From Sphingomonas sp. CCH10-B3 (GTDB taxonomy: Bacteria > Pseudomonadota > Alphaproteobacteria > Sphingomonadales > Sphingomonadaceae), in the NCBI RefSeq assembly GCF_001556185.1, contig NZ_LSIJ01000069.1, positions 1 to 15,816 on the forward strand: a DNA stretch of 15,816 nucleotides, given 5' to 3'. The notes below the pieces were generated by a model. The model was not told the DNA's origin. It was given only the letters and a program-made list of their open reading frames with translations, and did no database searches. This document shows positions 3-14,298 of the stretch, piece after piece (position 1 is the stretch's first letter; each line of letters opens with the position of its first letter). The position numbers and the translations under genes were made by a program.

Positions 3-1178
3 ATGCGATCATCTCAATCTACACCAGAAATTACACCACGAGCGCGGACGCTAACGACTTCCCGGTCTGCGGCCTCGTGGAACTTCGGCGCGGCTCACCT
101 CGAATGGGAGCCGCTGGAAGTCGGCACGGGTGATACCCTCCTTGTTTCGGCACAAGTGCGCGGAGTGCCGGCGCGGGCGGTGCTCGACAGTGGCAGCGGC
201 GCGTCGATCATGAGCACGGCGCTCGCGGCGAAGCTCGGCTTGAACAATGGTGAGCGGCGCATGATTAGCGGGCTGAGCGCCAAGGCCCCGGTGCTGCTGG
301 TCCGCGACATCGACGTACAGCTCGCCCGCGAAACCCGTCGCTTACCCTTTGCCGTTGTTGGTGATCTGAGTTCAGTGTCGGCGGCCTTCGGACGACCGAT
401 CGACGTTCTCCTCGGTGCCGATATGTTCACGGGCAGCTGCATCGCGCTCGATTTCGCGAACAGGCGTATGGCGGTCGTCAAGTCAGGCACGTTTCTCGCC
501 GGCCCCGACTGGCGCGCTGTCGCGCTCGGACGCGGTGCCAAGCAGGAGCTGTTCATCCGGGCCTCCGTCGAGGGCCTGTCTCCCGTGCCCTTGATGATCG
601 ATCTTGGCAGCTCGGCCGCGCTGATGCTCTCGTCGGCCTATGCCCGCGATCAAGGGCTGTTGAACGGGAAGCTCGTCTCGACCGCGGCGATCGGCGGCGT
701 CGATGGTGTGCGTATCAACGATGCTTTCACGATCCAGAACATCAACATCGAAGGGCTTGGCGTCTCGAACGTCCCCACACTCGGGATGAGAGCTTGGCTC
801 TCCACCAGCACGGTTGGCAATGTCGGCCTACCGCTGATCGCTCAATTCGACGTGGTGTTCGACGTGACCGCCGGATTCGTGTGGCTCCGGCCACTCGGTC
901 CTCGTCGTCGCCTGCCGATGCTGAAGGACCGTAGCGGCCTTGGCCTCGCAGCCTCACCAACGGCGCTCACCGTTGTTCATGTGGCGGCGAACAGTCCCGC
1001 GGAAAAGGCTGGCTGGGCGGTCGGCGACCGGATCGTGGCGGTGAACGGCCATTCGATCGATGCGAACTATACGCGTGGGGAGCTCTGGCAAGTGCGCTCC
1101 CGGCCTGCTGGCACCCTCGTAAAGCTGACGATGGCCTCGGGTGATGTGCGCGAGCTCAGGCTGGCCGATTATTATTGA
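3..1178 (+). CDS. retropepsin-like aspartic protease with C-terminal PDZ domain (5' end possibly outside window)
   Basis: The 391-residue product has a duplicated aspartic-protease-like region followed by a PDZ domain. The first lobe carries a clear DSG catalytic motif (D62-S63-G64, in AVLDSGSGAS). The second lobe has the equivalent segment MIDLGSSAAL around D200, where the usual DTG/DSG reads DLG, so it looks degenerate. Residues about 305-389 form a PDZ domain with the typical VAANSPAEKAGWAVGDRIVAVNG stretch, shown here only in part: SPAEKAGW and GDRIVAVNG. Retropepsin-PDZ proteins are common in sphingomonads and are usually exported; substrates are generally unknown. No signal peptide is visible in the first 30 residues and no ribosome-binding site can be seen, because the first ATG is only two bases from the window edge. 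The true start may be upstream. It converges on the MerR gene with a 7-bp overlap of the 3' ends and is probably not part of the metal operon. Confidence 0.82.
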   Translation: MRSSQSTPEITPRARTLTTSRSAASWNFGAAHLEWEPLEVGTGDTLLVSAQVRGVPARAVLDSGSGASIMSTALAAKLGLNNGERRMISGLSAKAPVLLVRDIDVQLARETRRLPFAVVGDLSSVSAAFGRPIDVLLGADMFTGSCIALDFANRRMAVVKSGTFLAGPDWRAVALGRGAKQELFIRASVEGLSPVPLMIDLGSSAALMLSSAYARDQGLLNGKLVSTAAIGGVDGVRINDAFTIQNINIEGLGVSNVPTLGMRAWLSTSTVGNVGLPLIAQFDVVFDVTAGFVWLRPLGPRRRLPMLKDRSGLGLAASPTALTVVHVAANSPAEKAGWAVGDRIVAVNGHSIDANYTRGELWQVRSRPAGTLVKLTMASGDVRELRLADYY

Positions 1179-1591
1179 TCGGCTTGAGGGTGGCCTTTGC
1201 CGATCGCCTTCATGATCCGACAATCGGCCATGCGCGCCTTGGTGCAGCTCTGGCTGAGCATTGCCAACTCATCCCGCAACACCGCGAGTTGCGCCAGTCT
1301 CTCCTCCACATCCTTGAGGTGCTGAGCAGCGATAGCTGAGGCGGCACCACAATCCTGGTCCGGGTTCTGCGCCAGCCCCATCAACGAACGGATCTCGTCG
1401 ACGGAGAAGCCAAGCCGGCGACCGTTGCGGATGAAGTGCAAACGCTCAATGTCACTGGCATCGTAGGTTCTGCGACCCGACGCCGTGCGAGGGGCGGATC
1501 GGAGCAACCCGATCGACTCATAAAAGCGGATCGTCGTCACCTTCGTCGAGGTCTCGCTGGCGAGCTGCCCAATCATCACCGGCTTCATCAT
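1172..1591 (-). CDS. MerR-family heavy-metal-responsive regulator (CadR/PbrR/ZntR-like)
   Basis: This 139-residue protein begins MMKPVMIGQLA at the ATG at 1591-1589, six bases after an AAGGA ribosome-binding site; longer readings of the frame have no such site. The N-terminal winged helix-turn-helix contains the MerR signature TTIRFYESIGLL (residues 19-30) and GRRTY (39-43). It is followed by the long dimerisation helix (about 77-112). Three cysteines, C81, C116 and C124, are spaced as in divalent-metal MerR sensors, where the first Cys binds across the dimer to the other two. That places it with the Zn/Cd/Pb/Hg sensors rather than CueR (Cu) or SoxR (Fe-S). It is transcribed away from the CDF transporter across a 75-bp region that holds a MerR-type operator, so it most likely activates the CDF-FTR1 genes by operator distortion. 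Which metal it prefers cannot be read from the sequence. Confidence 0.93.
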   Translation of the reverse strand: MMKPVMIGQLASETSTKVTTIRFYESIGLLRSAPRTASGRRTYDASDIERLHFIRNGRRLGFSVDEIRSLMGLAQNPDQDCGAASAIAAQHLKDVEERLAQLAVLRDELAMLSQSCTKARMADCRIMKAIGKGHPQADQ

Positions 1592-4690: not shown

Positions 4691-5968
4691 ATGAATCGTA
4701 TCCTCGCGGCCATGCTGGCCGCAGCGTCTTGCGCCACGATGGCGCAGGCGCAGGTCGGACCGTCCGCGCCTGTTGCGCAGGATGCGCCGGTCTACACGCT
4801 TGACCAAGCGGTCAGTGCAGCGGGCGGTTCGGCCCCTGCTGCGGAAGCGGCGACAGCTGGAATCGACGCGGCCCGTGCAGGTCGCACAGTCGCCGGCTTG
4901 CGGCCCAATCCGGTGGTTCAAGGCCAAGTCGAGAATGTCATCGGCTCCGGGCCGTATCGGGGGGTCCGCAGCGCGGAAACCACGGTCGGCTTTGCGATCC
5001 CGATCGAGCTAGGCGGCAAGCGCGGCGCCCGCGTCGCGGTCGCCAATGCGCAATTGTCCCGGGCCGAGATCCAGGCCGCGATCATCGCGGCGGATGTCCG
5101 GCTTCAGGTAACGCAGCTCTATGTCGAAGCGGTCGCGGCCGATCGCCGGGTAATGACAGCCCGCGATCAGGCCCGGATCGCCAGCGATGCGCTGCGGGCC
5201 GCGAGCGTTCGCGTGCAGGCAGGGCGGGCATCGCCACTCGAGCAACAGCGCGCGGATGTCGCGCGTATCAATGCCGACGCCAATGTGGAGCGGCAGCTTC
5301 GCTTGGCCGAGGCGGCCCGCGCCAATCTGGCGCGTCGGATCGGACGGCCGATCGACGGCCTGCTCGATGACACGCTGCTCGATCGCCTTCCCGATGTGAA
5401 CGTCTATGGGCCGTTGGCACCGGTCAACACGACCGGCACACTCGCGCTGGCGGCAGCCAACGCGGATTTCTCCATTGCCGAAGCCGGCGTGCGGCTCGCG
5501 CGCGCCAATCGCGTGCCTGACCTGAACGTCGGGCCGTCGATCCGCCGCCTGGAAGCGACCAACGACATGGCGGCGGTGTTCAGCGTGTCGATCCCGATCC
5601 CGGTGTTCAACAATGGTCGCGCCGCGATTGCGCAGGCGACCGCGCAGCGGACCCAGGCGGATGCGCAGCGCCGCGTGACCGCGCTCGACATCGAACAGGC
5701 GATCACGGACGCGCAGGCGCAGGCGGCCAATGCCGCAACGACGGCTCGTGCGGCGTCGGGGCCGGCGCTGGCGGCTGCACAGGAGGCCGCCCGCATCGCG
5801 CGGATCGGCTATCGCGAGGGCAAGTTCGGCCAGCTCGAATTGCTCGATGCTGAACGCACGCTCGCCGAAACGCGGGTCGCCGCGATCGACGCGCTTGCCA
5901 ATTACCAGAATGCCCGCGCGCAAGTGGAGCGACTGACCGCTCGTGCGCCCAATGGGGGGAATCAGTGA
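4691..5968 (+). CDS. czcC: CzcC-like outer-membrane efflux channel (TolC family)
   Basis: The 425-residue product has a signal peptide (MNRILAAMLAAASCATMAQA, cleavage before QVG) and two tandem outer-membrane-factor repeats, about residues 35-230 and 245-415. The long alanine- and glutamine-rich amphipathic helices would form the periplasmic alpha-barrel; the family trimerises in the outer membrane. Recognisable TolC/CzcC features include AIPIELGGKRGARVAVA around residue 100, and GYREGKFGQLELLDAERTL near the C-terminus (quoted in part: EGKFGQLELLDAERTL). It would form the exit duct of the CzcCBA metal efflux complex. A GGAG ribosome-binding site lies ten bases before the ATG. The stop codon overlaps the start of czcB (TGATG), showing translational coupling. 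Length is normal for CzcC. Confidence 0.93.
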   Translation: MNRILAAMLAAASCATMAQAQVGPSAPVAQDAPVYTLDQAVSAAGGSAPAAEAATAGIDAARAGRTVAGLRPNPVVQGQVENVIGSGPYRGVRSAETTVGFAIPIELGGKRGARVAVANAQLSRAEIQAAIIAADVRLQVTQLYVEAVAADRRVMTARDQARIASDALRAASVRVQAGRASPLEQQRADVARINADANVERQLRLAEAARANLARRIGRPIDGLLDDTLLDRLPDVNVYGPLAPVNTTGTLALAAANADFSIAEAGVRLARANRVPDLNVGPSIRRLEATNDMAAVFSVSIPIPVFNNGRAAIAQATAQRTQADAQRRVTALDIEQAITDAQAQAANAATTARAASGPALAAAQEAARIARIGYREGKFGQLELLDAERTLAETRVAAIDALANYQNARAQVERLTARAPNGGNQ

Positions 5969-7146
5969 TGAAGAGCTTTTATCTCGCGGGCGCGGCGTCG
6001 CTCGCCCTGCTCTTGGCTGCCTGCGGCGGCAAGGATGGCGGAAACGAGGCAACTGCCGAAGGCGCAGCTGCCAATGAGACGGCAGCGGGCACGGAAAAGG
6101 GCGGTGCTGAAGGCGGTCATGCCGGTGAAGGCGTCGTCACATTGGGTGCCGACCAGATCGCCACAGCGGGCGTCCAGGTCGGACGGCCGATCATCGGCGG
6201 GGCCGGGACGATCGAGCTGCCCGCGATCATCGAGGGCGACCCACAGGGAACGCAGGTCGTCTCGGCCGCAATTGCGGGACGCGTGGTCGCGCTCACCCGT
6301 AACCTCGGCCAATCGGTCGGACGCGGCCAGACCATTGCGGTCATCGAAAGCCGCGAGGCGGCGCAGATCAAGGGCGAGGTCGAGGCGGCGCGGGCGCGGC
6401 TTCAGCTCGCTAATTCGAACCTCGCGCGCGAACAGCGGCTGTTCGCGCAGAGAGTCTCCCCTGAACAGGATCTGATCGCCGCCCGCACAGCGGCGACGGA
6501 GGCGCGGATCGCCCTGACGCAGGCGCAGAGCATGGTTTCGGCGGCGGGTGTCGGCGGCGGCGGGCTCAACCGGCTCGGCATTGCCGCGCCGATCTCGGGC
6601 CAGATCATTGCGCGCCCCGTGACGCTGGGACAAACGGTCGCGGCGGATGCCGAACTCTATCGCATCGCCAACCTGAGCCAGGTGTCGATCGCGCTTAATC
6701 TCAAGCCCGAGGATGCGGGCCGGGTGCGTCCCGGCAATACGGTGCTGGTGAAGGCGGCAGGCCGTCAGGCGACCGCCCGCGTGACCTTCGTGTCGCCGGC
6801 GCTTGATCCGCAGACGCGGCTCGTGCCTGCGCTCGCCACCCTCGACAATCGCGGTGGCGAATGGCGGGTCGGCGAGCCTGTGACGGCAGCCGTGCAGCTC
6901 ACGGGCAGCGGCGGGAGCGGGGCGGTCCGCGTGCCGACGACGGCGGTCCAGAGTTTCGAGGGCAAGTCGGTCGTGTTCGTGCGCACGCCCACCGGCTTCA
7001 AGGCGACCCCGGTCCAGCTCGGCGATGCGTCGGGCGACACGGTGATCGTCCGGTCGGGCCTGACCGGCAACGAACAGATCGCCACCACCGGAAGTTTCAC
7101 GCTCAAGGCCGAGATCGGCAAGGGCGAAGCGAGCCACGAGGATTAA
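5968..7146 (+). CDS. czcB: CzcB-like periplasmic adaptor (HlyD/membrane fusion family) lipoprotein
   Basis: This 392-residue membrane-fusion protein links the RND pump to the outer-membrane channel. It has a lipoprotein signal with lipobox LAAC19 followed by G/E/A-rich linker sequence containing one His (GGHAGEG). The first lipoyl-like half is at about residues 95-128, a coiled-coil hairpin at 131-190, the second lipoyl half at about 203-233 (IAAPISGQIIARPVTLGQTV), and beta-barrel and membrane-proximal domains continue to the end. The ATG at 5968 overlaps the czcC stop (TGATG) and has a GGGGGGA site seven bases upstream; the GTG three bases earlier is an alternative giving a 4-bp overlap. The czcA start follows after only three bases. 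The family call is firm; the metal is inferred from the pump. Confidence 0.93.
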   Translation: MKSFYLAGAASLALLLAACGGKDGGNEATAEGAAANETAAGTEKGGAEGGHAGEGVVTLGADQIATAGVQVGRPIIGGAGTIELPAIIEGDPQGTQVVSAAIAGRVVALTRNLGQSVGRGQTIAVIESREAAQIKGEVEAARARLQLANSNLAREQRLFAQRVSPEQDLIAARTAATEARIALTQAQSMVSAAGVGGGGLNRLGIAAPISGQIIARPVTLGQTVAADAELYRIANLSQVSIALNLKPEDAGRVRPGNTVLVKAAGRQATARVTFVSPALDPQTRLVPALATLDNRGGEWRVGEPVTAAVQLTGSGGSGAVRVPTTAVQSFEGKSVVFVRTPTGFKATPVQLGDASGDTVIVRSGLTGNEQIATTGSFTLKAEIGKGEASHED

Positions 7147-7149
7147 GCC

Positions 7150-10100
7150 ATGATCGCCCGTATCGTAACCTGGGCGGTCGAGAAGCGCTGGCTAGTCCTG
7201 CTCCTCACCGTCATCGTCGCCGCCATCGGCGCCTTTTCCCTCTACCGGCTACCGATCGACGCGGTGCCGGACATCACCAACAATCAGGTCCAGATCAACG
7301 TCCGCGCGCCTGCCCTCTCGCCCGAGCTGGTCGAGAAGCAGGTGTCGTTTCCAATCGAAACCGCGCTCGCCGGCACCCCCGGCCTGGAATATACGCGCTC
7401 GTTGAGCCGCAACGGCTTCGCGCAGATCACGGCGGTCTTTTCGGACGCGACGGACATCTATTTCGCCCGCCAGCAGGTGGGCGAGCGTCTGCGGGGCGTG
7501 CAAGAGAATCTGCCCGACGGCGTGAACCCTGAAATGGGTCCGATCGCGACAGGCCTGGGCGAGGTGTACATGTACACCGTTCGTCTCGATCATCGCGAGG
7601 ACGACAAGCACAAGCCCGGTGAACCGGGCCAACAGCCCGATGGCAGCTACATCACGCCAGAGGGCGAGCGACTGACGACCGAAGAGGACAAGGCGACCTA
7701 CCTGCGCACCGCGCAGGACTGGATCGTGACGCCGCTTCTGAAGACCACACCGGGCCTCGCCGGTGTCGACTCGATTGGCGGTTACGCCAAGCAGTTCCTC
7801 GTCGTGCCCGACGTGCAGAAGCTGGCCTCGCTCGGCATCACGCTGACGGACCTGGGAAATGCGCTGGAGCGCAATAACACCAGCGTCGGCGGTGGCTTCG
7901 TCAATCGCAATGGCGAAGGTCTGGCTGTTCGCTCGGATGCGCTCGTTCGCAATGCCAGCGAGTTGGCCAGGACCGTGATCGCGACACGTAACGGCGTGCC
8001 GATCACGGTAGAACAAGTTGCGACTGTGAAGACGGGTCAGGCGATCCGCATGGGTTCGGCATCGGAGAACGGTACCGAAGTCGTCGTCGGCACGGCGATC
8101 ATGCGGATCGGCGAGAACAGCCGCATCGTGTCGACCGCGGTCGCTGAGAAACTGAAGACGATCAACGCTTCGCTGCCTCCTGACGTCGTAATTCAGCCGG
8201 TGCTGAACCGCACCGAGCTGGTCAATTCGACGATCAAGACGGTCGCGAAAAACCTGTCCGAAGGCGCGGTGCTGGTCATCGTCGTGCTCTTCCTGCTGCT
8301 CGGCAACTTCCGTGCGGCCCTGATCGCGGCGTTGGTCATCCCGATCACCATGATGCTGACAGGCTTTGGTATGCTGCGCGCTGGGGTCTCGGCCAATCTG
8401 ATGAGCCTTGGGGCTTTGGACTTCGGTCTGATCGTCGACGGCGCCGTCATCATCGTTGAAAACGCGCTGCGAAGGCTTGCCGAGCAACAGCATCATGAAG
8501 GCCGATTGCTGAGCGTCAAGGAAAGGCTCGCGACCGTGGCAGCCGCCGCGCGCGAGATGATCCGGCCCTCGGTCTACGGACAGGCGATCATCATCCTCGT
8601 CTACGTGCCGCTACTCACGCTGACCGGCGTGGAGGGCAAGACGTTCGTGCCGATGGCGCTCACCGTCATCATCGCGCTCGGCTTCGCCTTCATCCTGTCG
8701 CTCACCTTCGTCCCCGCCATGATCGCGATCTGGCTGTCCAAAAAGGTGGAGGAGAAGGACGGCCGCATCATCACATGGCTGAAGAAGCGCTACGAACCCG
8801 GTCTCGACCGGGCGATGAAGCGCCCGACCCTGACGATCGGGGCGGGTGTCGGCAGCCTTGTGGTGGCGGCGCTTGCCTTCACCACGCTCGGCTCGGTGTT
8901 CCTGCCGCAGCTCGATGAAGGCGATCTGCTCATCCAGTCGCTCCGCATCCCGGCAACGTCGGTCCAGCAGAGTCAGGCGATGCAGGTGCCGATCGAGAGG
9001 ATGATGTCGAAGCAACCGGAGGTGGCGTTCGTCTATTCAAAGACGGGCACCGCCGAGCTGGCGGCCGACCCGATGCCGCCGAACGCGACCGACATGTTCG
9101 TCATCCTGAAGCCGCGGAAGGACTGGCCGAACCCCGACCTTCCCAAGGAGGAGCTGGTAAGTCGGATCGAGGGTAATCTCGCGAAGTTCCCGGGCAATGC
9201 CTATGAGATCACCCAGCCCATCCAGATGCGCTTCAACGAGCTGATCGCCGGCGTTCGCGGCGATATCGCGGTGAAGGTATTCGGCGACGACTTCACACAA
9301 ATGAACCGGACGGCCGAGCAGGTTGCTGCGGTGCTGCGCAAGACGCAGGGCGCAGCGGACGTGAAGGTCGAGCAAACGACGGGCCTGCCCATGCTCGACA
9401 TTCGCGTCAATCGCGACGCAATGGCGCGTCTGGGCGTCACTGCCCAAGATGTGCAGGACATCGTCACCGCGACAATCGGCGGGCGCACCTCGGGCCAGAT
9501 CTTCGAGGGCGATCGGCGCTTTCCGGTCGTGATACGGCTCTCTGAAGCGCAACGGGCGGACATCGGCCTTCTCGAACAGGTGCAGGTGCCGTTGGCGGGG
9601 GGTGGCTATGTGCCGCTTTCGAGCGTCGCCGACATCAAGGTGGTCGATGGTCCCAACCAGATCAGCCGCGAGAACGGGAAGCGTCGCGTGGTGGTGCAAG
9701 CCAATGTGCGCGGTCGCGACGTCGGCAGTGTCGTTGCGGACGCGCAGGCGGCGATCGGTAGCCAGGTTCGGCTGCCCGCTGGTGCCTATCTCGAATGGGG
9801 CGGCCAGTTCGAGAACCTGCAATCGGCAAGCGAACGTCTGAAGCTGGTCATTCCGGCCTGCTTCATCCTGATCCTGTTGCTCCTCTACGGGGCATTGGGA
9901 TCGGTCCGCGATGCCGCGATCGTCTTCACCGGCGTGCCCTTCGCGCTGGTGGGCGGCGTTCTGCTGCTGTTCCTGCGGGGCATGGACTTCTCGATCTCGG
10001 CGGCGGTTGGCTTCATCGCCTTGTCGGGCATCGCGGTCCTCAACGGCCTCGTGATGGTCAGCTCGATCCAGGACCTGATCCGGTCGGGGCTATCGCGCGA

Positions 10101-10395
10101 AGAGGCGGCCCATGTCGGCGCAATGCAGCGTCTGCGGCCCGTCGTCATGACCGCGCTCGTCGCCAGCCTCGGCTTCGTGCCGATGGCGCTTGGCGAAGGC
10201 GCGGGCGCGGAGGTGCAGAAGCCATTGGCGACCGTCGTCATCGGCGGCCTGATCTCGGCAACGCTGCTGACGCTGTTCGTGCTGCCGACGCTCTACGCCC
10301 GGTTCGGGCAGAAAGTGATCGAGAAGCCCGAGCACTACAATGAGGAGCATGAAGGGGACGACCACGGTCAGACCTTCGTGAACGACTTGGCCTGA
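7150..10395 (+). CDS. czcA: CzcA-like heavy-metal RND efflux pump
   Basis: This 1081-residue inner-membrane proton/metal antiporter has the full RND plan: twelve transmembrane helices and two large periplasmic loops. The helix 4 motif GALDFGLIVDGAVIIVE contains D424, D430 and E437. These have the same spacing as the proton-pathway residues of CzcA (D402/D408/E415). This matches the Zn/Co/Cd branch of the heavy-metal RND family rather than the Cu/Ag branch, where CusA differs here. An acidic, polar stretch at about 146-186 in the first periplasmic loop is longer than a minimal loop. The C-terminus is hydrophilic with His and acidic residues (EHYNEEHEGDDHG). It is the last gene of the czcCBA set, three bases after czcB, and is followed by a strong hairpin. 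The substrate is predicted as Zn/Cd/Co, not shown. Confidence 0.95.
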   Translation: MIARIVTWAVEKRWLVLLLTVIVAAIGAFSLYRLPIDAVPDITNNQVQINVRAPALSPELVEKQVSFPIETALAGTPGLEYTRSLSRNGFAQITAVFSDATDIYFARQQVGERLRGVQENLPDGVNPEMGPIATGLGEVYMYTVRLDHREDDKHKPGEPGQQPDGSYITPEGERLTTEEDKATYLRTAQDWIVTPLLKTTPGLAGVDSIGGYAKQFLVVPDVQKLASLGITLTDLGNALERNNTSVGGGFVNRNGEGLAVRSDALVRNASELARTVIATRNGVPITVEQVATVKTGQAIRMGSASENGTEVVVGTAIMRIGENSRIVSTAVAEKLKTINASLPPDVVIQPVLNRTELVNSTIKTVAKNLSEGAVLVIVVLFLLLGNFRAALIAALVIPITMMLTGFGMLRAGVSANLMSLGALDFGLIVDGAVIIVENALRRLAEQQHHEGRLLSVKERLATVAAAAREMIRPSVYGQAIIILVYVPLLTLTGVEGKTFVPMALTVIIALGFAFILSLTFVPAMIAIWLSKKVEEKDGRIITWLKKRYEPGLDRAMKRPTLTIGAGVGSLVVAALAFTTLGSVFLPQLDEGDLLIQSLRIPATSVQQSQAMQVPIERMMSKQPEVAFVYSKTGTAELAADPMPPNATDMFVILKPRKDWPNPDLPKEELVSRIEGNLAKFPGNAYEITQPIQMRFNELIAGVRGDIAVKVFGDDFTQMNRTAEQVAAVLRKTQGAADVKVEQTTGLPMLDIRVNRDAMARLGVTAQDVQDIVTATIGGRTSGQIFEGDRRFPVVIRLSEAQRADIGLLEQVQVPLAGGGYVPLSSVADIKVVDGPNQISRENGKRRVVVQANVRGRDVGSVVADAQAAIGSQVRLPAGAYLEWGGQFENLQSASERLKLVIPACFILILLLLYGALGSVRDAAIVFTGVPFALVGGVLLLFLRGMDFSISAAVGFIALSGIAVLNGLVMVSSIQDLIRSGLSREEAAHVGAMQRLRPVVMTALVASLGFVPMALGEGAGAEVQKPLATVVIGGLISATLLTLFVLPTLYARFGQKVIEKPEHYNEEHEGDDHGQTFVNDLA

Positions 10396-10448: not shown

Positions 10449-10937
10449 ATGCCTCGCACCATAACCAGCTCAATGCTTCACGGCGGGCCACTGCGGATCT
10501 GGTCGGCGATCACCGATCCGGATCATCGTCGGGCTTGGAGTCCGCTCGTATTCCTCGACAACCCGTGCCAGCTTGGCGAGACGGAATGTACCTTCGCGAT
10601 CCAGGGCATCACCCGACCAATTCGGACGCCAGCACGGATTGATCGATTCGATAAGCCGCACGCCTTCGCTTGGTCCTGCGGCATCCCTTATCTGTTCACG
10701 CTCGAAGAGCGGTACGAGCTGGCAGGGGACGACGGTGGCACCAGGCTAACACATAGCTGCACGCTGCGCGGGGCGCTGTCTTTGCCGTTCGCGGCGATGA
10801 TGTTGCGTCGCCTGCGGTCCCTGATGATCGAGGCTGACGATCGCCTCGCAACCTATCTGCGCTGGCGGGTGGGTCAGCCTGCCCGTGGGATCAATCGTCA
10901 GCGCGTCCCCTCCCGGTACAGGAGGAAGGCGCGATGA
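10449..10937 (+). CDS. SRPBCC-family (START/Bet v1-like) protein
   Basis: The 162-residue soluble protein shows the SRPBCC pattern. An N-terminal strand and helix with the I-W-x-A-I-T-D-P-x-x-x-x-x-W signature (residues about 17-30) precede a series of beta strands. A long C-terminal helix (about 115-138) would close the ligand cavity. Family members bind hydrophobic ligands or act in aromatic and lipid metabolism, and no specific function can be assigned here. There is no signal peptide, so a cytosolic location is expected. The C-terminal 20 residues are basic and low in predicted structure. A GGGAG/GGGGA stretch precedes the ATG. The stop overlaps the next gene (ATGA), tying it to the lipoprotein gene and suggesting a role linked to this accessory block rather than to czcCBA directly. 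Confidence 0.75.
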   Translation: MPRTITSSMLHGGPLRIWSAITDPDHRRAWSPLVFLDNPCQLGETECTFAIQGITRPIRTPARIDRFDKPHAFAWSCGIPYLFTLEERYELAGDDGGTRLTHSCTLRGALSLPFAAMMLRRLRSLMIEADDRLATYLRWRVGQPARGINRQRVPSRYRRKAR

Positions 10938-11308
10938 CGCCGTTGAAGCGGGTTCTGCCCGCCCTCATCCTCGTTATCGGGCTGGCGGCTTGCACGGAAA
11001 GCAAGCCGCCAGCCCCGCCAACGGAGCAGCAAATCCATTCGTCCGACAGCGCCGTGGCGACCGGGGAAATGGGGCGCCATCCCTATCGCTGTTCCGACGG
11101 GGAACCGCTGTTCGTCGACTACAAGGACAACGGCCTGCAGATCGATTTGCGGCGCTCCAGCAGCGCCGTGCCCATGACGCTGACCGCGCCAGCGCAGGGC
11201 CTCCAATATGTCGGCGAGACAGCCACCGCGACCTTCAAGGGGTCGCAGCTCACCATCGTGGAAGGCGAAGGCCGCACGCGGACCTGCGAACGGGAGGGCA
11301 CCCGATGA
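10934..11308 (+). CDS. MliC-like (C-type lysozyme inhibitor fold) lipoprotein, copy 1
   Basis: The 124-residue protein has a lipoprotein signal with lipobox GLAAC20, a Pro-rich linker and a small C-terminal domain. That domain resembles the MliC/PliC membrane-bound lysozyme inhibitor fold. Features seen are YRCSDG near residues 51-56, a VDYKDNGLQI strand, an LTAPAQGLQYVGE segment like the family's SGSGxRY region, and a closing TCER. C53 and C118 probably form the fold's disulfide. Family members block lysozyme in the periplasm; the inhibitory loop here is not an exact match, so the activity is uncertain. The start overlaps the SRPBCC stop by four bases. A related lipoprotein with almost the same Cys-Cys spacing (65 versus 64) lies at 12614-13003, on the other side of fliE and the bestrophin gene. 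Confidence 0.75.
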   Translation: MTPLKRVLPALILVIGLAACTESKPPAPPTEQQIHSSDSAVATGEMGRHPYRCSDGEPLFVDYKDNGLQIDLRRSSSAVPMTLTAPAQGLQYVGETATATFKGSQLTIVEGEGRTRTCEREGTR

Positions 11309-11361
11309 ACCGTCCTGTCTTCCGACACGTCGCACTGCAACGGGAGAGAAACGATGTCTGA
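11305..11361 (+). CDS. possible 18-codon mini-ORF linking the lipoprotein and fliE genes
   Basis: The ATG at 11305 overlaps the lipoprotein stop (ATGA) and opens an 18-codon frame, MNRPVFRHVALQRERNDV. It ends at 11361, overlapping the fliE start at 11354 by eight bases. It may only carry ribosomes across the 45-bp gap to fliE, and it contains the fliE ribosome-binding site. No evidence shows the peptide is made for its own sake. Confidence 0.22.
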   Translation: MNRPVFRHVALQRERNDV

Positions 11362-11695
11362 CACGTCGATCTCGAATGTGATGGCCATTCGCGCCGAAGT
11401 GATCGCGCGAAGCCGCGCCTTGCGCGAGGCGCAGCCGACGGCACCGCCCGGCGTGACGCCGACCGCTCCAGCCTCAACCTTTGCCGACACCCTCAATGCC
11501 GTGGTGGCGAAGGTCAACGAGACCCAGGAGCAGGAGGATGTCGTCACCGAAGCATATGAACGGGGCGAAACCACCGACATTGCGACCGTCGCGCTCATCC
11601 AGAGCCGTGCATCCATTACGTTCGAGGCGACGCTGCAAGTCCGGAACAAGCTGCTGTCTGCATATCGAGACATCATGAACATGCCGATCGGATGA
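11354..11695 (+). CDS. fliE: FliE-like flagellar hook-basal body protein, isolated copy
   Basis: The 113-residue product ends with the hallmark FliE C-terminus: ASITFEATLQVRNKLLSAY (residues 86-104) followed by RDIMNMPI. The middle, FADTLNAVVAKVNETQEQED (43-62), matches the FliE helical region. Length is normal for FliE, which is about 100-110 residues and has no signal peptide because the flagellar export apparatus secretes it. In flagellated bacteria FliE joins the MS ring (FliF) to the rod (FlgB) in the periplasm. Here no fliF, flgB, flgC or export gene is present. Its neighbours are a MliC-like lipoprotein and a bestrophin, all on the same strand with short gaps. A GGGAGAG ribosome-binding site lies a few bases upstream of the ATG. 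It could be a displaced flagellar gene or one recruited to an envelope role. The family identity is strong; the function here is open. Confidence 0.9.
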   Translation: MSDTSISNVMAIRAEVIARSRALREAQPTAPPGVTPTAPASTFADTLNAVVAKVNETQEQEDVVTEAYERGETTDIATVALIQSRASITFEATLQVRNKLLSAYRDIMNMPIG

Positions 11696-11726
11696 CGATC
11701 GCGGAGATAACTAAGGCGGTATTGGT

Positions 11727-12614
11727 ATGATTGTCGGCACAAGGCCACGATTTACGCAGATTATTGTCGAGGTTTGGAAGCCCCTCACGATCCTGTTCGT
11801 GTGGGACGTGGCGGTGACGGCATTCCACATGATGACCCCGATCAAGGAACCGCCTTTGCCGACGGCGCTGTTCGGCACTGCCATCGCGCTCTTCATGGGG
11901 TTTCGGACCAACGCCGCTTATGCACGCTGGTGGGAAGCGCGAACTCTTTGGGGCGCGCTCATCAATTCCTCGCGCAGTCTGGCCCGGATCACGCGCAGCC
12001 TGACCAAGGGGGAACCCGAGGGCAGTGAGATACGGCACCACATCATCCTGAGGCAGATCGCCTTTGCGCACTCGATGCGCTGCCAGCTTCGCCGACAGTC
12101 GCCCTATGAAGAAATTGCCCGGGTCGCCGGAACGGAGGTCGCCGATATGGCGGTCACTCGCCTGAACCCTGCCAATGCGCTCTTGGAGGACATATCGGGC
12201 ATTTACGCTGACGCGCTCGCGGAAGGTCGGATCACCGAGATCCAGCAGGCAACTGTGGAGCGCGTCCTGATCGACATCGCCAATGCGCAGGGCGGCATGG
12301 AGCGGATCAAGAACACGCCGCTGCCCAATGGCTTTCGGTTCTTCCCGAACCTCTTCACGCGTGTGTTCTGCGTGCTGCTCCCGATCGCGCTGGTCGAATC
12401 CCTGGGCCTTGCCACGCCGATCGGATCGACGCTGATCGGACTCGTCTTCCTCGCGGTGCTGAGCATCGGCGAGGATCTGACCGATCCGTTCGCCAATAGC
12501 GTCCACGATGTCCCGCTCACGGCCATGTGCCGCACGATCGAGATCGACCTTCTCCAAACCGCGGGACTTCCGGCCCCCGAGCCGCTGACACCTGATCACG
12601 GGGTGCTGTGGTGA
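11727..12614 (+). CDS. bestrophin-family ion channel
   Basis: The 295-residue membrane protein has the bacterial bestrophin (YneE/UPF0187) signature segments in order. These are FRTNAAYARWWEAR (residues 59-72), NTPLP (196-200) followed by the FFPNLFTRVFCVLLP helix, and EDLTDPFANSVHDVPL (249-264). Bestrophins are pentameric channels; animal ones conduct chloride, while a characterised Klebsiella homologue is cation-permeable. Four transmembrane helices are expected. In this setting it could balance charge or osmolarity during metal-proton exchange, but that is an inference from location only. The ATG at 11727 has AAGGCGG seven bases upstream. Its stop overlaps the start of the second MliC-like lipoprotein gene. 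The sequence looks full length. Confidence 0.9.
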   Translation: MIVGTRPRFTQIIVEVWKPLTILFVWDVAVTAFHMMTPIKEPPLPTALFGTAIALFMGFRTNAAYARWWEARTLWGALINSSRSLARITRSLTKGEPEGSEIRHHIILRQIAFAHSMRCQLRRQSPYEEIARVAGTEVADMAVTRLNPANALLEDISGIYADALAEGRITEIQQATVERVLIDIANAQGGMERIKNTPLPNGFRFFPNLFTRVFCVLLPIALVESLGLATPIGSTLIGLVFLAVLSIGEDLTDPFANSVHDVPLTAMCRTIEIDLLQTAGLPAPEPLTPDHGVLW

Positions 12615-13003
12615 TGGGCATGCGCGCCTTGCTGCATCTGCCCGGGCTCACGATCGCGCGCGTTGGCGCCGTTCTCGTCACCGGCGTGATTGTAGGGGCG
12701 TGCAACCCGGCTCCGAGCGAACCTGTCGAACCGGCTCATGACAAGCGTGTGACGCCAAGGCTGATCGCGCAGCGCATCATGTATTGCGACGACGGCACCC
12801 GCGCCGATGTCGACTTCATCGACGACGGCCTGAAGATGGCCGTCACCTGGCTGCCGAAGGGCAGGACCGAGATCCTGCGCGCCCAGCGAACCGGTGATGA
12901 ATTTCGCGGCAACCAGTCACGGGCGGTCGTGGCGGGCGGGGCGATCGCCTTCATGCGGCGCGGGAAAATCCACGTCTGTCACCGAACCCCGGAGGGATCA
13001 TAG
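12614..13003 (+). CDS. MliC-like lipoprotein, copy 2
   Basis: The 129-residue protein has a lipoprotein signal with lipobox VGAC30 and a Pro/Glu-rich linker. Its small domain begins IMYCDDGTRADVDFIDDGLK and ends HVCHR. It aligns with the C-terminal domain of the lipoprotein at 10934-11308: C-x-DG, then VD-x-x-D-x-GL, then a terminal basic x-C-x-R, with C58 and C122 probably disulfide-bonded. It diverges more from MliC than copy 1, so lysozyme inhibition is less certain; a role in binding another periplasmic partner is possible. The ATG at 12614 overlaps the bestrophin stop (TGATG). GTG codons at 12608 and 12611 are alternative starts; GTG 12611 would give a GTGA overlap. It is followed three bases later by the ZIP gene. 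Confidence 0.68.
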   Translation: MGMRALLHLPGLTIARVGAVLVTGVIVGACNPAPSEPVEPAHDKRVTPRLIAQRIMYCDDGTRADVDFIDDGLKMAVTWLPKGRTEILRAQRTGDEFRGNQSRAVVAGGAIAFMRRGKIHVCHRTPEGS

Positions 13004-13006
13004 GAT

Positions 13007-13693
13007 ATGCAGGCACTGCTTTACACGCTTGCGCCTGTGCTGGCGGTCGTAATCGGCGCGATCATCGCGAGCCGCACAAAGTTAAATCCTGGCCTCGTGG
13101 CGGGGCTACAGCATCTTGCTGCCGGCGTCGTGTTCGCGGCGGCAGCGACTGAAATCCTGCCGCAGGTCAAGCATGAGGCTTCGCCCAGCGCGACGTTGAT
13201 CGGCGGGGCGGCGGGCGTCGTAACGATGCTGGGTCTCAAGGCTTTCGAGGCCCGCTTCAAGGGGCCGATGGCGCTGCTCGCCGCGATCGGCATCGACATC
13301 CTGGTCGATGGCCTGGTGCTCGGCCTTGCGTTCGTCGCGGGCGAGAAGGCGGGATTTCTGCTGACGATCGCGCTGACACTCGAAGTGCTCTTCCTGGGTC
13401 TGACACTGACCAACGAGCTGGCGGAAACCTATCGCTCGCGCCTGCGCATCATCGTGATCGTCTCGGCCTTGGCGCTGCTGCTGCCGATCGGCGCGCTCGC
13501 TGCCGTTCCTGTCGCCACGCTCTCGCCGGTAATGGTCGCTGGCTTCCTGAGCTTTGGGCTGATGGCGCTGCTCTACCTCGTCACGGAAGAGCTGCTGGTT
13601 GAGGCGCACGAGAAGCCTGACACCCCGCTCATCAGCTCGATGTTCTTCGTAGGGTTCCTCGCCCTCCTGACGCTCGAGGAGATCATGGGATGA
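13007..13693 (+). CDS. ZIP-family metal transporter
   Basis: The 228-residue, about eight-helix membrane protein shows the ZIP pattern. LQHLAAGVVFAAAATEILP (residues 34-52) is helix 2 with H36 and E49. IGIDILVDGLVLG (94-106) is the helix 4 signature, where the usual H-N-x-x-E-G reads D97-x3-D101-G102. Helix 5 carries LTLEVLFLG with E126. ZIP proteins normally carry Zn, Fe, Mn or Cd into the cytosol, the reverse direction of the efflux genes around it. The replacement of His and Glu by Asp at the transport site suggests altered metal preference. A GGAGG-like site lies just upstream of the ATG at 13007. The stop overlaps the CDF start by four bases (ATGA), so the two transporters are co-translated. 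Confidence 0.85.
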   Translation: MQALLYTLAPVLAVVIGAIIASRTKLNPGLVAGLQHLAAGVVFAAAATEILPQVKHEASPSATLIGGAAGVVTMLGLKAFEARFKGPMALLAAIGIDILVDGLVLGLAFVAGEKAGFLLTIALTLEVLFLGLTLTNELAETYRSRLRIIVIVSALALLLPIGALAAVPVATLSPVMVAGFLSFGLMALLYLVTEELLVEAHEKPDTPLISSMFFVGFLALLTLEEIMG

Positions 13694-14298
13694 ATGCGAG
13701 CAACGACAACGCGGGCACGCAGGAGCGTCGCACGCTCTGGATCGTGCTGCTGCTGAACGCAGCAATCGCAGCGGGCTTTTTCGTATCCGGCGCGTTCGCC
13801 GATTCAAGTGCGCTCATCGCCAACGGCGTCGACAATCTGTCCGACACCGCCGTTTACGCTCTCAGCCTCGTCGCGCTGACCCACGGTAAGACGTGGAAGA
13901 CGCGCGCCGCGATCGCATCGGGGGTAATGCTGCTGATCTTTGCGGGCGGCATCCTGATCGATGTCGGGCGACGCTATGTGCAGGGGAGCGAGCCGATCGG
14001 ACCGACCATGATGGTCATGTCGGCGATCGCCGGCGTCGTAAACTACCTCTGCCTGCGGCTGCTCCAGCGGCTCAAGGATCCGGACGTTAACCTACGGGCC
14101 GCCACCACCTTCAGCTTCAATGACTTCATTTCCAATGGCGGCATCCTGATCGCGGGCGTGCTGGTGCTGTGGCTGGGCACCAACTGGCCGGACCTTCTGG
14201 TCGGCTTCGCTACCGCCATCATCGCCATCAAGGGCGGTGTCGAAATCCTGCGCGACGCGCGCGCCGAAACCAAGAAAAGCGAAAGGAGGTCGTCATGA
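13690..14298 (+). CDS. short CDF metal transporter, copy 2
   Basis: The 202-residue, six-helix transporter is a paralogue of the CDF protein at 1667-2293. Helix 2 reads ANGVDNLSD with D48-x3-D52. Helix 5 reads FSFNDFISNGG with N144, D145 and N149, the same ND-x3-N form as copy 1 in place of H-x3-D. The cytoplasmic C-terminal domain is absent, leaving only a short charged tail (about 188-202). It should export a divalent metal from cytosol to periplasm, feeding CzcCBA. Its start overlaps the ZIP stop, and its stop overlaps the P-type ATPase start by four bases (ATGA). An AAAGGAGG site inside its 3' end (about 14283-14289) serves the ATPase gene. Confidence 0.88.
   Translation: MNASNDNAGTQERRTLWIVLLLNAAIAAGFFVSGAFADSSALIANGVDNLSDTAVYALSLVALTHGKTWKTRAAIASGVMLLIFAGGILIDVGRRYVQGSEPIGPTMMVMSAIAGVVNYLCLRLLQRLKDPDVNLRAATTFSFNDFISNGGILIAGVLVLWLGTNWPDLLVGFATAIIAIKGGVEILRDARAETKKSERRSS

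Follow-up and report, generated by a model that had tools for sequence, protein, structure and literature searches.

A mobile FliE subfamily under purifying selection, found mainly in metal and ion-transport islands of sphingomonads

The window, by which we mean the whole 15,816-nucleotide stretch analyzed here, carries a FliE-family gene inside a metal-efflux operon. Genes in this same-direction run follow the order czcC, czcB, czcA, SRPBCC, lipoprotein-like, fliE, bestrophin, second small gene, ZIP, and CDF. The succession of efflux genes and then SRPBCC, small lipoprotein-like, ZIP, and CDF genes identifies a czc-type metal-resistance island, whose features are as follows.

1172..1591, minus strand: regulator of MerR type, transcribed away from the first CDF gene (by eye from the list of open reading frames)
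4691..10395, plus strand: czcC, czcB, and czcA-type efflux genes (open reading frames; related plasmids annotate the same order as TolC family, RND adaptor, and CusA/CzcA)
10449..10937, plus strand: SRPBCC / polyketide-cyclase-like protein (PF10604, 28.1 bits, a narrow pass over the cut-off of 27.4)
10934..11308, plus strand: small lipoprotein-like protein, weakly MliC-like (MliC scores 16.2 bits and so misses the cut-off of 22; lipoprotein nature judged by eye)
11354..11695, plus strand: stand-alone FliE paralog, 113 aa (open reading frame; PF02049, 84.8 bits, cut-off 22.4; TIGR00205, 76.8 bits, cut-off 30)
~11381..12631, plus strand: stretch missing in sister islands, comprising fliE past codon 9, bestrophin, and the start of the next small gene (right edge to ~25 bp)
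11727..12614, plus strand: bestrophin-family channel (PF25539, 226.4 bits)
12608..13003, plus strand: second small lipoprotein-like protein (by eye; no Pfam match)
13007..13693, plus strand: ZIP-family transporter (PF02535, 35.5 bits, a narrow pass over the cut-off of 35.1)
13690..14298, plus strand: cation diffusion facilitator, CDF (PF01545, 63.7 bits)

The window fliE starts 45 nt past the small lipoprotein-like gene, and the bestrophin gene follows 31 nt downstream. A scan for sigma-70 promoters and terminators gave no excess over shuffled sequences. By eye, a candidate MerR-type promoter, its spacer 19 bp long, lies at 1629-1659 of the window, 5' of the first CDF gene, as judged against the consensus for such promoters; this stretch matched none of the other loci compared.

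The 113-aa product had been read as FliE, and this assignment is confirmed by both FliE profiles, which score above their curated cut-offs. Helices are predicted at residues 4-25, 43-69, and 76-108, so that all three FliE helices, namely helix 1 and the helix 2-3 hairpin (D0), are predicted intact, and the best structural matches are solved FliE structures. According to passages of PMC12403130, the partners of FliE are the MS ring, FliP, FliR, FlgB, and FlgC, its route is the flagellar export channel, and Met-102 of Salmonella FliE touches FliP. No membrane segment was found in the window protein (maximum 19-residue hydropathy 1.06). Given this finding and the occurrence of fliE without bestrophin, the envelope-spanning adaptor that the first-pass annotation had suggested, taken as tied to bestrophin, is not supported. 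Cys occurs in 0/26 and His in 1/26 island-type FliE rows of our alignment, making metal binding by FliE itself unlikely.

The absence of flagellar genes around the window fliE, remarked on earlier, extends to the whole 73.9-kb contig (C2). Searching its 73,865 bp by tblastn (E<=1e-6) with the host's own FliE, FliF, FliG, FliH, FliI, FleQ, and flagellin (names assigned by eye, FliF also by Pfam) recovered only the window FliE. The rod-protein family PF00460, which includes flgB/flgC, had no match on this contig; its six matches in the genome all fall on contig C23, at 21.0-27.7 kb. C23 also carries a second host fliE, together with fleQ, fliF, fliG, fliH, fliI, and three flagellin genes. The two FliE proteins are 50% identical (53% over residues 6-112), and the presence of a fliE in the flagellar cluster rejects the possibility that the window gene is the host's only or misplaced flagellar fliE. 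The three tandem flagellin genes of this cluster (L003 4317-7223, minus strand) are 94-97% identical to the first. Flagellar FliE is the adaptor between the MS ring and the rod and the opener of the FliPQR export gate, and to our knowledge FliE is generally treated as meaningful only inside the flagellum.

The arrangement recurs well beyond the window. In a scan using one genome per species, fliE sits in the same operon in 24 of the best 80 of 132 loci (L010-L033, 83-100% identity), some of these operons being broken off by contig ends. The gap 5' of fliE measures 45 nt in 25/27 loci and the 3' gap 31 nt in 23/26. On plasmids, eight records hold the full 3.85-kb stretch, and a ninth plasmid, H44 (FliE 77%), keeps the same order through the second small gene and then has a P-type ATPase. 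Thus, the search for FliE homologues with metal-operon neighbors proposed at the outset finds the order in 24 genome loci and nine plasmids, and this conserved position supports the earlier placement of fliE in the metal-resistance transcription unit. An obligate fliE-bestrophin pair is rejected, since L019 keeps fliE with bestrophin reduced to a remnant and relatives beside a P-type ATPase and a transporter have no bestrophin annotated next to fliE. In L033 (genome G321), fliE is broken by an internal stop codon. Two of the sphingomonad metal islands, L022 and L011, come from records that bear the names Tolypothrix campylonemoides and Arthrobacter sp., probably through contamination or misnaming.

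Some sister islands have no fliE. The region occurs in 35 plasmid records, in its full form in 8, shortened to 2,619 bp from 3,850 in 26 (two of them from the same strain), and as a partial copy in 1, making the deleted form commoner than the full form on plasmids (26/35 records). In pISP0, fliE is kept from its start through codon 9, after which the reading frame continues within the second small gene; its annotated hypothetical protein (L090, 6911-7324) is the FliE nine-codon start fused to the second small lipoprotein-like protein. The identical junction was present in 13/13 loci inspected, comprising 12/12 genomes in which ZIP is 96% identical and fliE is missing there, and pISP0, the one short-form plasmid of the 26 in which it was read base by base. 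Because one shared junction retains the first nine fliE codons, the fliE-less sister islands are shown to have lost the gene by deletion. One loss, in a lineage that later spread, would be the simplest account of the shared junction. A one-off insertion of fliE, the outcome that would have undone the earlier proposal, is rejected, as the gene is conserved in 24 loci and the islands without it are deletion products that retain nine of its codons.

We then placed the island gene among its relatives. In a set of 397 genomes from the family, 8 encode a FliE with an identity of at least 60%, the next best among the matches listed being 57%. Stand-alone relatives (~50-64% identity) are mostly near metal or ion-transport genes. 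Some adjoin a P-type ATPase and transporter, one a HAD hydrolase and an arsenic-resistance gene, and others DedA and phospholipase D-like genes; the G166 relative is next to a Na/Ca exchanger on a contig that also has relaxase and coupling-protein genes; and L130 again has SRPBCC, small lipoprotein, and bestrophin-like neighbors (names by eye). No metal gene was found near relative L095. In a tree of 92 rows and 116 columns, few columns for so many rows, the 26 island-type rows all fall to the same side of a branch (88/82), and together with three CDF/pyruvate-kinase-associated rows they split from flagellar FliE at 99/94. The comparison with flagellar FliE that had been called for therefore yields a clade apart, with the window protein outside the flagellar group. 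Identical sequences were merged, and the tree leaves out 11 second-type flagellar FliEs, L042 (ambiguous, split), L078, other partial copies, same-place repeats, and L033 and L126, which the profile missed.

The clade has residues of its own. E61, D62, Q83, and R85 are present in 26/26 island-type rows and A80 in 24/26, whereas flagellar rows have M80 in 58/58, R or K at position 83 in 58/58, E61 in 0/58, and R85 in 0/58. The helix-3 residues F90 to M110 are largely common to both groups. The island-type motif was found in 0/23 flagellar loci checked, among which L180 repeats a row of the tree. Two further kinds of stand-alone FliE were seen. One, with a long N-terminal part, lies behind DUF6118 (L100 5767-6213, L101 5761-6213, and L102 5761-6213; also L116 and L129), and in L100 and L101, on conjugative plasmids, also behind a traA relaxase. 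A third kind (L098 5788-6213, L099 5788-6213, and L048 from ~5845) sits in L098 and L099 between CDF/pyruvate kinase and DedA/HAD genes.

Island fliE is under strong purifying selection, with a summed pairwise dN/dS of 0.087 for 16 distinct sequences among 26 rows (window, L010-L032, L091, and L092, with L033 left out; the pairs are non-independent and dS is high for the two most distant rows). This constraint is as strict as that on ZIP (0.089), CDF (0.070), and CzcB (0.080); the values for bestrophin, SRPBCC, and the small lipoprotein-like genes are 0.124, 0.204, and 0.245-0.273. That fliE is a passenger carried along by the island with no function of its own would agree with its loss in one widespread lineage and with the broken L033 copy, but is very unlikely given this selection and the recurrence of the same clade across several contexts.

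The hosts are largely flagellated. flhA is present in 31/32 genomes carrying stand-alone FliE loci, the sole exception being the assembly titled Tolypothrix, which is probably mixed with sphingomonad DNA. It is also present in 32/35 ZIP-bearing genomes without island-type FliE, including 12/12 of those with the deletion, and flagellated hosts are therefore not discriminating as evidence of function. Seven of the 8 genomes with FliE of at least 60% identity have flagellar genes, the exception being G166, where an intact island-type copy occurs without FlhA, FliP, and FliF_C. Thus, a host need not have a flagellum to carry the gene, at least where the gene is on mobile DNA. By FliF_C alone, 11/298 genomes had FliE without FliF (lists compared by eye); as FlhA is found in 9 of these 11 and FliP in G035, G166 alone stays a clean flagellum-less case. 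G255 has FlhA and is missing among the FliE and FliF_C genomes; it is a draft of ~180 contigs, and this may be an assembly gap.

These results make a strong case for a mobile FliE subfamily that is under selection and associated for the most part with metal and ion-transport islands. As to its role, our leading reading, in which our confidence falls a little short of even, is a distinct, horizontally transferred sphingomonad FliE subfamily, residing mostly in metal/ion-transport islands and acting on the host flagellar export gate. During metal stress, island FliE would be co-produced with the efflux proteins, exit the cytoplasm via the host flagellar type III gate, and dock on FliPQR and the MS ring, replacing or sitting beside flagellar FliE; docking would change or block gate opening and rod assembly for the duration of the stress. 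The export gate as target is an educated guess. It draws support from the separate flagellar fliE of the host, the same operon order in L010-L033 and the nine plasmid records, the clade with its low dN/dS, fixed residues, and kept helix 3, the predicted helices and matches to solved FliE, the partners and route given in PMC12403130, and the lack of Cys and of a membrane segment. Against it stand the G166 copy, the similar share of flagellated hosts with and without the gene, the prevalence of the deleted form on plasmids, and the relative without a metal gene nearby. A bolder version, which we consider doubtful, is that the FliE of mobile metal islands is a dedicated, re-tuned form which, when metal is present, docks on the host export gate and plugs or re-gates FliPQR. 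If true, costly flagellum building would be stopped or an ion leak closed, and a flagellar basal-body part would have been taken over by a mobile element.

Two other roles were weighed against action on the export gate. Independently of the flagellum, a metal or ion-homeostasis operon might have recruited the FliE hairpin for use as a small helical regulator or adaptor that acts either in the cytoplasm or on the inner membrane. The G166 copy, intact without the three flagellar markers and beside an ion exchanger on a relaxase-bearing contig, fits such a role, as do the fixed residues at 61/62/80/83/85 and the recurrence of transporter and envelope neighbors. We nevertheless regard it as unlikely, since the helix-3 residues conserved in flagellar FliE are retained, no membrane segment is present, and a constant partner is missing, with neighbors that vary and bestrophin gone in L019 and in the P-type ATPase/transporter relatives. 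Less probable still is that the island copy is an extra working FliE, sustaining flagellar assembly when metal stress lowers chromosomal expression. Its full FliE anatomy and the near-constant flhA of the hosts would suit a spare, but a single gene out of a many-gene machine is little supply, and fixed differences such as A80 in place of the flagellar M80 argue for a changed task.

Among the papers listed on FliE in sphingomonads and on metal resistance, none was seen to describe this subfamily, with most subscription papers outside the literature covered; in passages on FliE from PMC3238334 and PMC6472365, it appears within lists of flagellar genes. Plasmid annotations name the island gene fliE, a label that can mislead surveys in which fliE is taken to indicate a flagellum. 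Metal clusters may adjust the host swimming machinery, and the coupling of motility to metal status raised by the first-pass annotation is possible. Through a selected, mobile FliE in metal operons, possible interference of plasmids and resistance islands with host motility can be approached, and the opening of the export gate can be dissected with a FliE altered by nature.

Among known systems close to the window are the czc-type metal-resistance islands of sphingomonad plasmids, for example that of pISP0 (Sphingomonas sp. MM-1), which shares TolC, the adaptor, CzcA, SRPBCC, the small protein, the ZIP-position gene, CDF, and a P-type ATPase, but from which fliE and bestrophin have gone through the in-frame deletion. 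The traA-DUF6118 FliE of sphingomonad conjugative plasmids is likewise a stand-alone FliE on mobile DNA, but has a separate origin in the tree (100/100), a long N-terminal part, and flagellar-type residues at 80 and 83. Flagellar FliE (PF02049 / TIGR00205) differs from the window protein in adjoining fliF rather than lying on a metal island and in its residues at 61, 62, 80, 83, and 85, whereas the two share the family match, the three helices, and common helix-3 residues, including window M110, which by alignment corresponds to Salmonella Met-102.
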